Shown here piece by piece: positions 34,220-37,777 of a stretch of DNA of 64,000 nt. Origin of the DNA: Alistipes sp. (lineage in GTDB: Bacteria; Bacteroidota; Bacteroidia; Bacteroidales; Rikenellaceae); the NCBI GenBank assembly GCA_017621455.1, contig JAGATC010000008.1, forward strand, positions 1-64,000, read 5' to 3'. A model generated the notes under the pieces. It ran no database searches, was not told where the DNA came from, and was given only the letters and a program-made list of their open reading frames with translations. Within the stretch, counting starts at the first letter, position 1, and every line of letters starts with the position of its first letter. The translations under genes and the position numbers were made by a program.

Positions 34220-35419
34220 TTATTGACCACGCGACTTATAGTACTCGTTCACCAGGCTGCGATAGCCTAACTCCTTCAGCATATCGTAGCTGACTCTGTA
34301 GTTCGCCTTTGTGTGGCGACCTGTGGAGAAAAGTCGTATGCACTGCTGTAGGTAGTGGTCTATCTCTTCGAGCGACTTCTTCTCGGTGATTATTGGGAAG
34401 TACCATCGCGACCATGTGAGGCTGTCGTTGTCGCTGCTATCGAAGAATTTATGGTTGAAGATGGTGATAAGGCGAGCCATAGCACGCTCTTTGGGAGCCC
34501 CTTTGCGCTTCTGCCAGCGTAGGAGCGCTCGTGTCTTGCGGCGTATCTTTCCCTTCATCTTCTCTACGCCCGATGCCGAAACGTCGATATGTCCATTTAA
34601 GCACTCGAATCCCAAGAACTCAAAGGCCTCGTCTGGGGCGTAAATATGCTCTTTTGAGGGGTTGACCTCGAGGTGGCGCTCGGCTAAGAATCTAAGGATT
34701 GTTGCGCGATGTGTTTGTAGCGTGTCGTAGTCCTTGGCGAAGATGATAATGTCGTCGGAGTAGCGTGCATATATCACCCCCTGCTCATGGAAGTAGTGGT
34801 CCATATCCATGAGATAGACATTCGCTAAGAAGGATGCTGTGGGCACGCCCGCCAGCACGCCACGAGCCTCGTGAACAATTTCGCCGTTATACTCGGCACG
34901 GTCGTCCATGAGCATATCTCTAAAGAAGCTTAGTAGCGTGTTGTCATCTCTAAGCAACTCTTCTAACATGCCCATAAGCAGCGGTATATCGACCGAATTA
35001 AAGTAGTTATGGATGTCGACCTTGTAGCCCCATAGATGTTTGTTGCATACCGTGTTGCTTATCTTGAGCACGGCGTCCGTGGCATGTATTCCACGTCGGA
35101 AAGCGTAGCAGTTTGGTGCAAAGGCGTCGTCGTAGTGATATAGTTTGTAGGCCAGGAGTTTGAGTAGCGTCATCGTCTCTTCGTCGTATTGGTAGACGAT
35201 GCGCTTTTTGTTCGACCCCATCTTGTTTATCACCTGCTTGCGAGGTATGCCCACACCATTGCTGAGTATCTGCTCGACAATAGGCTGGTAGGCCTTATCC
35301 TCGATAAAGAGGTCTGCCTTGTCGAACTCATGCCACTTAAAGCGCCTCTTTGTGAGGCGGTAGGCGAGGAACTCTTCCCACGCCTGCTCGGAGTATAGTT
35401 GGTCGATAAGGCTGTTCAT
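34220..35419 (-). CDS. Divergent free-standing reverse transcriptase
   Basis: A 399-residue RNA-directed DNA polymerase with all palm motifs. These are CYAFRRGIHATDAV (about 104-117), the first catalytic Asp in YKVDIHNYF (Asp135), RGVLAGVPTASFLANVYL (187-204) and the active-site box YARYSDDIIIF with Asp222 and Asp223. FEFLGF and a roughly 110-residue helical C-terminus (thumb) follow, ending ELGYRSLVNEYYKSRGQ. There is no endonuclease or maturase domain. The motif before LAN is AGVPTAS, not the retron QGAPTSP nor the DGR-type LTSQ, and no retron VTG is seen. I choose ATG 35419; an in-frame GTG at 35446 lies inside the structured RNA. The layout suggests a retron-like or abortive-infection RT. 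Its exact class is unknown. Confidence 0.88.
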   Translation of the reverse strand: MNSLIDQLYSEQAWEEFLAYRLTKRRFKWHEFDKADLFIEDKAYQPIVEQILSNGVGIPRKQVINKMGSNKKRIVYQYDEETMTLLKLLAYKLYHYDDAFAPNCYAFRRGIHATDAVLKISNTVCNKHLWGYKVDIHNYFNSVDIPLLMGMLEELLRDDNTLLSFFRDMLMDDRAEYNGEIVHEARGVLAGVPTASFLANVYLMDMDHYFHEQGVIYARYSDDIIIFAKDYDTLQTHRATILRFLAERHLEVNPSKEHIYAPDEAFEFLGFECLNGHIDVSASGVEKMKGKIRRKTRALLRWQKRKGAPKERAMARLITIFNHKFFDSSDNDSLTWSRWYFPIITEKKSLEEIDHYLQQCIRLFSTGRHTKANYRVSYDMLKELGYRSLVNEYYKSRGQ

Positions 35420-35427
35420 AGTAGATA

Positions 35428-35569
35428 AAAGAGAGAGGGGAGGCACTTTGACTTAAGCACGTTGCTTAGATACCAGATGGTACATAGCCTGGTCGCCTGT
35501 AAGACACTATTATAGGCTATGCTGCATCCGCCACAGGCGCAGCACGTTGGCTACATCCCCTCTCTCTTT
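35428..35569 (-). ncRNA. Structured RNA directly upstream of the reverse transcriptase
   Basis: On the minus strand a 142-nt segment is closed by a perfect 14-bp stem: AAAGAGAGAGGGGA (35569-35556) with its complement (35441-35428). Inside are TGCTGC/GCAGCA with an inner GCC/GGC, CATAGCCT/AGGCTATG (35521-35514 with 35490-35483), TACCA/TGGTA, and TAAGC/GCTTA. The octamer AACGTGCT occurs twice. The 5' arm begins 11 bases after the stop of the upstream gene and the 3' arm ends eight bases before the RT start. In retrons and ncRNA-dependent defence RTs such a stem-closed RNA is primer and template. By analogy this is the likely template or guide. An attenuator is the alternative. Confidence 0.75.
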
Positions 35570-35580
35570 ATATTTGTTGT

Positions 35581-36081
35581 TTACCTTCTATTGTAGAGGA
35601 AGTCGCGGATGCGCTCTACAACGTAGCTCTTCCTGTTGTGGAACTGAGTGTAGAAGTTGATGTAGGGCACACCCACCTTTTGCGCATATTTGCGCGAGAT
35701 TAGGAACTTAACCTTGCGTTCGTGGCTACGGTTGTCGCCCAACATGACTACACCCTTGACGATGCCATTCTTGTACATCACAAAGCTGTATGGCTGTCCC
35801 CACTCTGCTCGGTAGGCCTGATATGGGCGGGTTGAGTATAGCTGCATAGAGTCGGCAACGTTGCCAACAAGCTCTGTTACAGCAACATTTTCGCGCAGTG
35901 TGTACTCTGGGAATTCTCTTCGTATAATTTCACGGAAGTAGCCCATAAAGCTCTCGGGAGGAGGACACACCGTCACAGTGCAGTTCTGAAAAGCGGGCTG
36001 AGGCTGCTGAGGCTGCTGAGGCTGCTGCTGAGCCGGCTTTGGTTCAGGATTTGAGTTAAACAGTAAGTTAAAAAGTCCCAT
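35581..36081 (-). CDS. RT-associated small protein, unknown function
   Basis: A 166-residue soluble protein. It begins MGLFNLLFNSNPEPKP followed by a Gln/Pro linker (QQQPQQPQQPQP), then a globular domain from about residue 30. The second half (SFVMYKNGIVKGVVML followed by GVPYINFYTQF and YVVERIRDFL) has the strand-helix rhythm of small nuclease-fold proteins that end with GIPY.nFy and a terminal helix. I cannot point to a full PD-(D/E)XK motif, so this is only a hint. It has its own promoter and is the first gene of the cassette leading to the RNA and RT. It could be an effector or accessory factor of the RT. Confidence 0.75.
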   Translation of the reverse strand: MGLFNLLFNSNPEPKPAQQQPQQPQQPQPAFQNCTVTVCPPPESFMGYFREIIRREFPEYTLRENVAVTELVGNVADSMQLYSTRPYQAYRAEWGQPYSFVMYKNGIVKGVVMLGDNRSHERKVKFLISRKYAQKVGVPYINFYTQFHNRKSYVVERIRDFLYNRR

Positions 36082-36117
36082 AGTATTGTGAATATTAGGT
36101 TTGCGGTAGTTGTTCTA

Positions 36118-36125
36118 CAAAGATA
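36118..36125 (-). promoter_or_regulatory. Promoter of the RT cassette
   Basis: TATCTTTG on the minus strand with a TTTG about 20 bases further upstream. The leader to the ATG at 36081 is about 30 bases. No second box is visible before the structured RNA, so one transcript probably spans protein, RNA and RT. Confidence 0.75.
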
Positions 36126-36166
36126 AGTACTTTAGATTACATCTGCAAATAAAAACCAATATTTAA

Positions 36167-37198
36167 CTATTTAGGATCTACTGACTCCTCTATAGCTGTC
36201 GGTTTATACAAGGTTTGCCAATGAGTAATCATTGCAGCCATATTATCCTTGCTTGTTACATTCTTAAGAATCTCATCTGTGCTCATCAGGCACTTATGTT
36301 TTACAAGTTTATTAAAGTCATATTTGTACTTATACTCAACATTGCCATTCTTGTCGCGTATCTCTTCGCGTTTAACCAACTTCTCGTCGTTAATCATGTG
36401 GTATAGCCGCTCCCCATAATTCTGCTTGTCACTCCACTTTAATCCTAAGTTTTCGATAAACTGCTCATAGTCAGCCTTGTCGAATAGCAGCGAGTAATTA
36501 CCATTATCGAGTTTACCCATTCGCCAGAGATAGGCATCGAGTAGGTCGAATTGTTGGTAGCCATCAAGCATATTGTCATCCGTAAATATTGCCTTGCGCA
36601 CCTCGTCTAATAGACATATGTAACTATCTATTGACGTGCTCTCGGTGATTTCCTTAGCCTTAATCTCCAATTTATCACACACTTTTGGATACATCGCTAT
36701 AGCAAGACTGTCATAGATGGGAAATCCCAAAGGATATCTCTTGGGATCCTGCATAAGGGCATAGTAGGCATATTTAGACATTAGCGACATCTGCCTACCT
36801 CCCTCTTTAAGATTCTTGCGAATGCCATATTTTATTGAGAAGAGATTGTCATTATCCCTAATTTTGCCCTCTACCAACTCATAGAAATGGGTCGCTGCAT
36901 CCTCCTCTGTTCCTAAATTCTTTATCGCCTTGGCCATCTCTTCAAATGAGAAGTAGCTATATTCCGCATTTGTAGAGTATAGTGAATCGATGACAACAAG
37001 TCGTAGCATAATCGATTGAATGCCATAGTTTTGAGAGGTGGCTGTAAATATTTGATTAATCATAGCACGCTGCTGCACGTACGAGAAGTCTTGTCCCTCG
37101 AGTGATGATACTGTGCTGGCCTCATAACGCAGGGCGGGGATAATGTGCCCTCGGATTAAATTAAGTATTTCCTCTTTGTTTGGTTGTGTGCTGCTCAT
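36167..37198 (-). CDS. Unknown protein near the RT cassette
   Basis: A 343-residue soluble, mostly helical protein without signal peptide or membrane segment. I do not recognise the family. Visible landmarks are LRLVVIDSLYSTNAEYSYF (about 65-83), SLMSKYAYYALMQDPKRYPLG followed by FPIYDSLA (about 135-165), and FDLLDAYLWRMGK (about 225-237). The SKY..YAL...PIYDS pattern recurs in uncharacterised bacterial proteins. GC is visibly lower than in flanking core genes, suggesting horizontal acquisition. It has its own promoter (37269-37276) and lies 85 bases upstream of the cassette promoter on the same strand. It could be a separate accessory gene or a further partner of the RT. Confidence 0.7.
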   Translation of the reverse strand: MSSTQPNKEEILNLIRGHIIPALRYEASTVSSLEGQDFSYVQQRAMINQIFTATSQNYGIQSIMLRLVVIDSLYSTNAEYSYFSFEEMAKAIKNLGTEEDAATHFYELVEGKIRDNDNLFSIKYGIRKNLKEGGRQMSLMSKYAYYALMQDPKRYPLGFPIYDSLAIAMYPKVCDKLEIKAKEITESTSIDSYICLLDEVRKAIFTDDNMLDGYQQFDLLDAYLWRMGKLDNGNYSLLFDKADYEQFIENLGLKWSDKQNYGERLYHMINDEKLVKREEIRDKNGNVEYKYKYDFNKLVKHKCLMSTDEILKNVTSKDNMAAMITHWQTLYKPTAIEESVDPK

Positions 37199-37412: not shown

Positions 37413-37513
37413 TATCAAAGGAGGGGTTTGGGGAGGATTGTAAATATGAGGGGGATTTCATCCCTCCCTTTTCGCCAGATGCAAAAAAAGAGCAGACAAA
37501 AACTGTCTGCTCT
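37413..37513. repeat. Duplicated tRNA-Ser trailer block, distal copy
   Basis: A 101-base block nearly identical to 37581-37682, offset 168-169 bases. It contains an inverted copy of the tRNA-Ser 3' end, a poly-A run and a terminator hairpin (37489-37513). Confidence 0.85.
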
Positions 37514-37580
37514 GCATCGATATACAGATAAATTTATGGACTATAGTCCGCAAGCCGATGGCTTGCAACAAGTCCCTCCT

Positions 37581-37682
37581 TATCAAAGGAGGGGTTTGGG
37601 GAGGATTGTAAATATGAGGGGGGATCTCATCCCTCCCTTTCTGCCAGATGCAAAAAAAGAGCAGACAAAAACTGTCTGCTCT
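37581..37682. repeat. Duplicated tRNA-Ser trailer block, proximal copy
   Basis: It differs from the distal copy by only a few bases and one inserted G. It ends at the tRNA-Ser terminator hairpin, six bases from the tRNA 3' end. Bases 37630-37651 are the inverse of the tRNA 3' end and CCA with one mismatch. Confidence 0.85.
37651..37682 (-). terminator. Terminator downstream of tRNA-Ser
   Basis: AGAGCAGAC (37658-37666) pairs with GTCTGCTCT (37674-37682) and T's follow on the minus strand. Confidence 0.9.
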
Positions 37683-37687
37683 ACATC

Positions 37688-37777
37688 TGGCGGAAAGGGA
37701 GGGATTCGAACCCCCGGAACAGTTGCCCGTTCACCGCATTTCGAGTGCGGCCCGTTCGACCACTCCGGCACCTTTCC
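37688..37777 (-). tRNA. tRNA-Ser (anticodon CGA)
   Basis: The minus strand starts GGAAAGGTGCCGGAGTGG and folds as a class II tRNA. The anticodon stem CCGCA/TGCGG holds the loop CTCGAAA (anticodon CGA), a long variable arm follows, and the T-loop is GTTCGAATC. The acceptor stem GGAAAGG pairs with the 3' strand, the discriminator is G and CCA is encoded. Promoter and terminator are both visible. Confidence 0.95.

Follow-up and report, generated by a model that had tools for sequence, protein, structure and literature searches.

Repeat units with direct and inverted copies of the tRNA 3' end lie in arrays behind Alistipes tRNA genes

Results

Tail units in the analysed stretch of DNA

The 64,000-nt stretch of Alistipes DNA analysed here (the window), on contig C3 of a 2.1-Mb draft genome, carries a tRNA-Ser(CGA) gene followed by two near-identical tail blocks, a tRNA-Leu(UAG) gene with a tail of its own, and a third unit that belongs to tRNA-Cys (Table 1). 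The tRNA-Ser blocks (37413–37518 and 37581–37687) share 42 identical nt and a further 69 nt at 94% identity; the original prediction gave their offset correctly (168; the starts are 168/169 apart) but made them about 101 bases long instead of 106/107. Each block contains an inverted tRNA 3' end (X'), a terminator (H1) and a 37-nt motif, motif A, and the inverted end and terminator that had been predicted are indeed found in both: X' of unit 1 is 88% complementary to positions 37684–37715 over 32 nt, and X' of unit 2 is 84% complementary. Both copies hold a single mismatch across CATCTGG..GGGAT and then lose the T-loop (TCGAA changed to GAGAT or GAAAT). The tRNA strand of 37450–37715 folds at -74.9 kcal/mol, against -29.9 ± 4.0 kcal/mol for dinucleotide shuffles (z = -11).

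Table 1. Features of the tRNA-Ser, tRNA-Leu and tRNA-Cys tails in the window
Feature	Position	Strand	Basis
tRNA-Ser(CGA) gene, anchor	37688–37777	minus	ARAGORN, Rfam
X1, T-loop-to-CCA part of tRNA-Ser(CGA)	about 37688–37711	minus	
H1 of tRNA-Ser unit 1, terminator hairpin GAGCAGAC..GTCTGCTC + T7	37652–37681	minus	
X' of tRNA-Ser unit 1, inverted 3' end (trailer, CCA, acceptor, T-stem), T-loop to GAGAT	37619–37650	minus	
Motif A copy 1 (TCATATTTACAATCC..CTCCTTTGATA), Alistipes intergenic repeat, tRNA-Ser tail	37581–37617	minus	
Small hairpin GCAAGCCATCGGCTTGC preceding tRNA-Ser unit 2	37550–37566	minus	
Small hairpin GGACTATAGTCC preceding tRNA-Ser unit 2	37538–37549	minus	
Both small hairpins before tRNA-Ser unit 2, combined	37538–37566	minus	
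Start of tRNA-Ser unit 2, direct trailer copy (GATGCA) + H1 (37483–37512)	37483–37518	minus	
X' of tRNA-Ser unit 2, inverted 3' end, T-loop to GAAAT	37450–37481	minus	
Motif A copy 2, tRNA-Ser tail	37413–37449	minus	
tRNA-Leu(UAG) gene, second anchor	760–843	minus	ARAGORN
H1 of tRNA-Leu tail	718–751	minus	
X' of tRNA-Leu tail, inverted 3' end with CGAG retained and a single C-to-T change	694–716	minus	
T-arm-like end of tRNA-Leu unit, GACCGCAGTTCGAGTCTGGTTGTGCTGCC	505–533	minus	inference in part
B hairpin module, tRNA-Cys unit	238–300	plus	model R1 match, 70.6 bits
Small hairpin GAGTTCGGGATTTCACCCTCAC between B and X2, tRNA-Cys unit	301–322	plus	
X2, direct copy of tRNA-Cys 3' end from the T-loop, TTCGAATCCGCTTCAGACCTCGAT	323–346	plus	
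Terminator-like H1 of next tRNA-Cys unit	353–388	plus	

The tRNA-Leu(UAG) tail has the layout that had been likened to that of tRNA-Ser, with X (757–786), H1 and X' in the same order; its T-arm-like end, GACCGCAGTTCGAGTCTGGTTGTGCTGCC, is probably a decayed direct copy of the 3' end (X2), and a similar end lies behind tRNA-Ser in another species (L043). The tRNA-Cys unit occupies 238–388 and its gene lies at the end of contig C4; the tRNA-Cys array probably spans the contig break. Taken with the units described below, the inverted copy on which the original prediction rested proves to belong to a larger unit, whose direct copy of the tRNA 3' end and hairpin module had gone unnoticed; at the start of tRNA-Ser unit 2 the tRNA part of X2 has been lost. 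The C-to-T mismatches remarked upon in the tRNA-Ser and tRNA-Leu copies are real, but they follow no general rule: across 36 X' copies G>A (0.048) and C>T (0.047) occur at equal rates and most changes are transversions (G>T 30, G>C 21), and a recurrent C-to-T change is not supported as a signature.

Anatomy of the units

In tRNA orientation a unit reads X – H1 – (hairpins) – X' – hairpin module – X2 – next unit, where X comprises the T-loop, the 3' strand of the T-stem, the acceptor, CCA and the trailer, and H1 is the tRNA terminator. Many units have two more hairpins, H2, formed by pairing of the U-tract with an A-tract and bearing a GCAAGC-like tip, and H3; an outer arm pairs with the trailer and continues into X'; and a small variable hairpin separates the hairpin module from X2, after which H1 follows again. 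The 90 units with module B, behind tRNAs of 24 isoacceptors, are 226–395 nt long (median 286). Class A units, those of Ser(CGA), Met and Thr(GGU), are shorter (164–169), with motif A replacing B, and X2 is largely lost in their tails, that of tRNA-Ser(CGA) included. The units are non-coding, strongly palindromic, about 165–395 bp long and directly behind tRNA genes, with direct copies of the 3' end of the tRNA concerned as their boundaries; no gene was found inside the units of 226–395 nt, and hence they encode no integrase.

The two kinds of copy have different borders. X' was found in 36/90 B units and in 0/90 shuffled ones, and its identity runs to the T-loop and usually stops there, the T-loop being altered in most copies. 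The left edge of X2 lies at T54, the first base of the T-loop, with identity extending only 0 or 1 nt further in 90/90 units and all 24 isoacceptors; X2 was located by its T-loop pattern, and it is this sharp edge, not the position of X2, that counts as independent evidence. A copy of the T-stem 5' strand stands just before B and pairs with the T-stem 3' strand of X2 (212/265 positions paired versus 175 ± 5 in shuffles, with 0/2000 shuffles as high), which places B and the small hairpin within the T-loop of a duplicate T-arm.

Distribution among tRNA genes and genomes

Our survey of the window's own genome listed 42 tRNA matches and read their tails; the sequences compared were stretches around tRNAs and around matches. 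Copies of the tRNA's own 3' end, direct and/or inverted, are present in about 17 of 41 tails, roughly 4 in 10. Tails with such copies include those of Ser(CGA), Ser(UGA), Ser(GCU), Leu(UAG), Leu(CAA), Leu(CAG), initiator Met, Thr(GGU), Thr(CGU), Val, Asp, His, Lys(UUU), Pro(GGG), Gln(CUG) and Cys, some of them weaker. At a strict threshold (score >= 28), X2 or X' was found in 13 of the 40 tails tested, to which Leu(UAG), Ser(UGA) and Cys are added; the threshold was reached in 0/39 upstream flanks of the same genome, in no shuffled sequence, and in 0/33 tails of three control genomes, namely a B-less Alistipes, a member of another genus of the family and a member of another family (G007, G137 and G031). 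Chance is rejected as the origin of the copies by the shuffles, the upstream flanks and the folding z-score. The original prediction of a recurrent process, perhaps a tRNA-tail element, is thereby borne out: the genome-wide search for inverted tRNA 3' ends that it called for gave many more cases than tRNA-Ser and tRNA-Leu, so that the possibility of only two cases in the genome is rejected, and the tails are conserved, with varying copy number, in dozens of sister species.

Sister records with module B are Alistipes MAGs, mostly from ruminant hindgut. A tRNA-Ser tail from another family (L064, genome G031) has a similar outer stem and three hairpins with no clear X' or X2, and on this basis the hairpin body may predate the tRNA-copy arrays. 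Our literature searches, which were of partial coverage, yielded no description of such tRNA tails.

The hairpin modules

Module B is a covarying 66-nt hairpin shared by tails of 24 isoacceptors and found only in Alistipes tRNA tails. A covariance model, R1, was built from alignment A3 (two of its ten sequences had the variable loop shortened by hand), and a second alignment, A4, holds 54 unedited matches. R1 matches number 12 in the window's own genome, every one in a tRNA tail; B copies occur in 15/25 genomes of the genus, and 198 genomes of the order gave only two extra matches, both marginal. A same-strand tRNA lies 140–640 nt upstream of 48 of the 54 B matches, the other six being near contig ends or behind an integrated element. 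In a larger set searched by pattern, 87 of 105 matches are no more than 700 nt from a tRNA; of the others, some are truncated where the fetched DNA ends, some are slightly more distant, and some are chance matches of a loose pattern in unrelated organisms. The B pattern had no matches in plasmid and phage collections and its matches in viral contigs were not R1 matches, and mobile carriers of B were accordingly rejected.

The stems of B are 98.6% paired and show 117 two-sided changes versus 37 in shuffles, and its loop has conserved unpaired bases. Within an isoacceptor, different species often have the same stem type and small hairpin, a pattern that speaks for long residence by vertical descent, broken by occasional turnover. 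Motif A (CTCCTT..AAAGGAGGGTTTGGG.GGATTGTA) is a general Alistipes intergenic repeat (L004, L078, L080, L081, L085, L086, L088), many copies of which have no tRNA within about 1.5 kb; it was rejected as the defining element and is a passenger or module. In some tails (L005, L042, L093, L115) the place of B is taken by a module C (GGCGTTAAGCG – hairpin – GTAGCC AATCCC), which is similar to the end of the tyrT unit of E. coli, GGGCGAAGCG..AGTAATCC.

Strand preference of the stems

Stem mismatches were counted in 90 distinct units after folding without G·U pairs. H1 holds 29 G·T against 2 A·C, as expected of RNA, whereas all stems after H1 together hold 24 G·T against 47 A·C and thus have no sense-strand wobble preference; the stems of B have three G·U and four A·C out of 769. 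The slight antisense excess (p = 0.009, with phylogeny ignored) is suggestive only. The T-stem copies (29 G·U versus 6 A·C) count toward the RNA side, although part of their G·U excess comes from G·U pairs that tRNA T-stems already hold. Folding energies of the sense and antisense strands did not differ (24/41, p = 0.13). Structured regulatory RNA tolerates G·U pairs on the sense strand, and the conserved stems after H1 lack this tolerance. These results indicate that H1 acts as RNA and that whatever shaped the remaining stems acted on DNA, or at any rate not on a sense transcript; the suggestion of a "regulatory trailer", taken in the RNA sense, finds no support past the terminator.

Gain and loss of units, and neighbouring enzymes

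Copy number differs between genomes at the same tRNA: the Asp tail has one unit in the window's own genome and in G004 and two units in both G022 and G017, B being the same while the hairpin arms are unrelated, and the Thr(GGU) array has two units in the own genome, four in G006 (at an exact spacing of 168) and one in G004. A B unit of about 250 nt behind the initiator tRNA-Met of L154 and L059 is absent from L066; the three share the DNA behind it, and the unit ends at X2. Arrays may mix kinds of unit, as at Pro(GGG) and at Ser(UGA) in G011. Neighbouring units of one array tend to be near-identical; homologous recombination by itself suffices to explain this, a point against the explanation favoured below.

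The only direct link between units and a recombinase is L095 (3–1311), where a Phage_int_SAM_5 integrase ends at a copy of the tRNA-Met 3' end that shares the T-loop border and is followed at once by a B unit; here an integrative element has come to lie between a tRNA and the tail that belongs to it. An att-like duplication of the tRNA 3' end is present in the units themselves. Directly behind the tRNA-Thr(GGU) array, L006 (731–1444; G000:C1) has a 237-aa ORF that, judged by eye, looks like a serine recombinase of the resolvase/invertase type. Downstream of the tRNA-Ser array, the window carries an RT_UG26 reverse transcriptase (PADLOC, 8.6e-160) in 34220–37198 on the minus strand, with an RT-5 RNA (35439–35542) and a weak match to an RTasCOG2852-like protein (35581–36081) beside it and a 343-aa protein of unknown kind in the same region, a candidate anti-phage system. 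The 24 sister genomes searched gave no comparably strong match to this RT_UG26; B units occur in 15 of 25 genomes, and a role of the reverse transcriptase was rejected.

Discussion

Our analysis of Alistipes tRNA tails reveals a common layout with a sharp X2 border, differences in copy number, presence or absence of whole units at orthologous tRNA genes, and an anatomy that matches that of E. coli tyrTV, together with a clade-specific module conserved through Watson-Crick covariation across 24 isoacceptors, and pairing that points to the DNA level. The repeats behind the E. coli tyrosine-tRNA gene tyrT have long passed for an isolated curiosity. Under the same analysis, the tyrTV tail of E. 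coli K-12 has three X2 copies (AATCCTTCCCCCACCACCA) at a period of 178, against 164–169 for class A units of Alistipes; three X' copies (GGGGAAGGATGAGAAGCTTCG, T-loop altered), one per repeat; and a copy of the T-stem 5' strand (AAGGTTCGA) followed by hairpins or a hairpin module before X2, as in Alistipes. Direct 3'-end copies that start in the T-loop, by which tyrT/rtT repeats are recognized, are thus present in Alistipes, and the inverted 3' end with an altered T-loop is present in both; we found no discussion of the inverted copy of tyrTV in the literature searched, older literature lying outside the search. The two differ in that E. coli has one such tRNA locus and Alistipes many, in that module B and the three-hairpin body (226–395-bp units) are absent from tyrTV, and in that tpr is annotated in the tyrT repeats whereas Alistipes units have no gene. 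The Rfam RtT covariance model (RttR/rtT, RF00391) matched 0/25 Alistipes genomes with a positive E. coli control; it is by anatomy, and not by sequence, that the Alistipes units work like tyrT/rtT repeats.

We consider it somewhat probable that the tails are tRNA-anchored DNA repeat units of the tyrT/rtT kind, changed by recombination across the duplicated 3' end, perhaps with the help of integrases. Arrays would grow, shrink and exchange units as DNA: RecA-type exchange between repeats would probably account for most copy-number change, unequal crossing-over being sufficient for tandem copies, and T-loop-specific tyrosine integrases, whose attachment site is the T-loop boundary, may act in trans to insert units or excise them. 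H1 is simply the tRNA transcription terminator, and X' would keep the arms foldable as DNA hairpins, its altered T-loop avoiding an inverted core. The spread of B to 24 isoacceptors, each with a tRNA end of its own, requires either ancient vertical descent during which X and X' were repaired locally, or a process able to capture the end of the tRNA at hand. Against recombination units stand the lack of any enzyme tied to them, the units being gene-free, B being absent from viral, phage and plasmid collections and the reverse transcriptase near tRNA-Ser not being shared with other carriers, the fact that simple att duplication explains neither X' nor the hairpin module, and the loss of most X2 from class A tails. 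ICEs, phages and tycheposons (tRNA-targeting tyrosine-recombinase elements) have the same T-loop boundary and duplicated tRNA 3' end, whereas the units lack integrase and cargo and those elements lack X' and hairpin modules.

Integron attC sites are palindromic sites in arrays whose paired arms leave the crossover region unpaired. The Alistipes units are likewise palindromic and in arrays, with the T-loop of X' altered in most copies, although their core sequence is unrelated. By this analogy they could be gene-free mobile DNA with the tRNA T-loop as core, moved in trans by a tRNA-specific tyrosine recombinase, of which tyrTV would be an isolated example: in single-stranded or cruciform DNA, X' and X2 would form a duplex with the T-loop unpaired and the hairpin module at the tip. 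Its appeal lies in the unpaired crossover region; no enzyme supports it, and we regard it as unlikely. REP/RAYT and IS200/IS605 elements are also short intergenic palindromes in many copies, but module B, unlike them, is restricted to DNA behind tRNA genes; hairpin transposition of that type was rejected, the Y1 transposase (PF01797) being found in 0/25 Alistipes genomes with positive controls.

Three further explanations compete with repeat units changed by recombination. The tails could be read through into a structured RNA in which X' pairs either with X1, so that the tRNA 3' end is masked, or with X2, which releases that end, and so acts as a switch tuning tRNA maturation, or they could be a source of rtT-like small RNA. 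H1 as a sense-strand terminator, the two exclusive pairings that X1, X' and X2 permit, the conservation of the B hairpin down to its loop bases, the RttR RNA annotated at the corresponding position in E. coli and the G·U excess of the T-stem copies all point this way; yet stems after H1 have no sense wobble preference of the kind seen in H1, folding energies are alike on both strands, a strong terminator precedes most of the unit, and the tails match no known Rfam family, so that we doubt this explanation. Scars of ordinary integrative elements (ICEs, phages) that have decayed, with the tRNA T-loop as attB, would share the T-loop boundary and would fit the Phage_int_SAM_5 integrase beside the tRNA-Met copy, but scars would decay independently, whereas the units are gene-free, of similar size, built from common modules and maintained in their stems; such an origin seems to us very improbable.

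It is also conceivable that the units are a neutral by-product of replication: terminator hairpins would provoke template switching, from which backward (X') and forward (X2) copies of the tRNA 3' end would arise, quasi-palindrome correction would maintain the complementarity of the arms, and unequal crossing-over would build the arrays. Every tRNA-derived part matches the local tRNA, X – hairpin – X' is the expected product of snap-back copying, covariation by Watson-Crick pairs only fits DNA-level correction, and the arms diverge completely between species. A by-product would not, however, be expected to bring B, which is not derived from tRNA, keeps unpaired bases and occurs at 24 isoacceptors but not elsewhere, nor to start at T54 in every X2, nor to leave nothing in three other genomes; we judge it a little less probable than a structured RNA.

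A tyrT-like anatomy at many tRNA genes in another phylum suggests that the E. coli curiosity belongs to a wider class, and turns it into a question for comparison: by what process do forward and backward copies of a tRNA 3' end arise, and why do they have the T-loop as their border? Many natural replicates, a searchable hairpin model and pairs of loci with and without a unit are now on hand for testing. The arrays occupy docking sites of integrative elements and coincide with contig breaks in these assemblies, and may thus affect both the insertion of genomic islands and the assembly of genomes.
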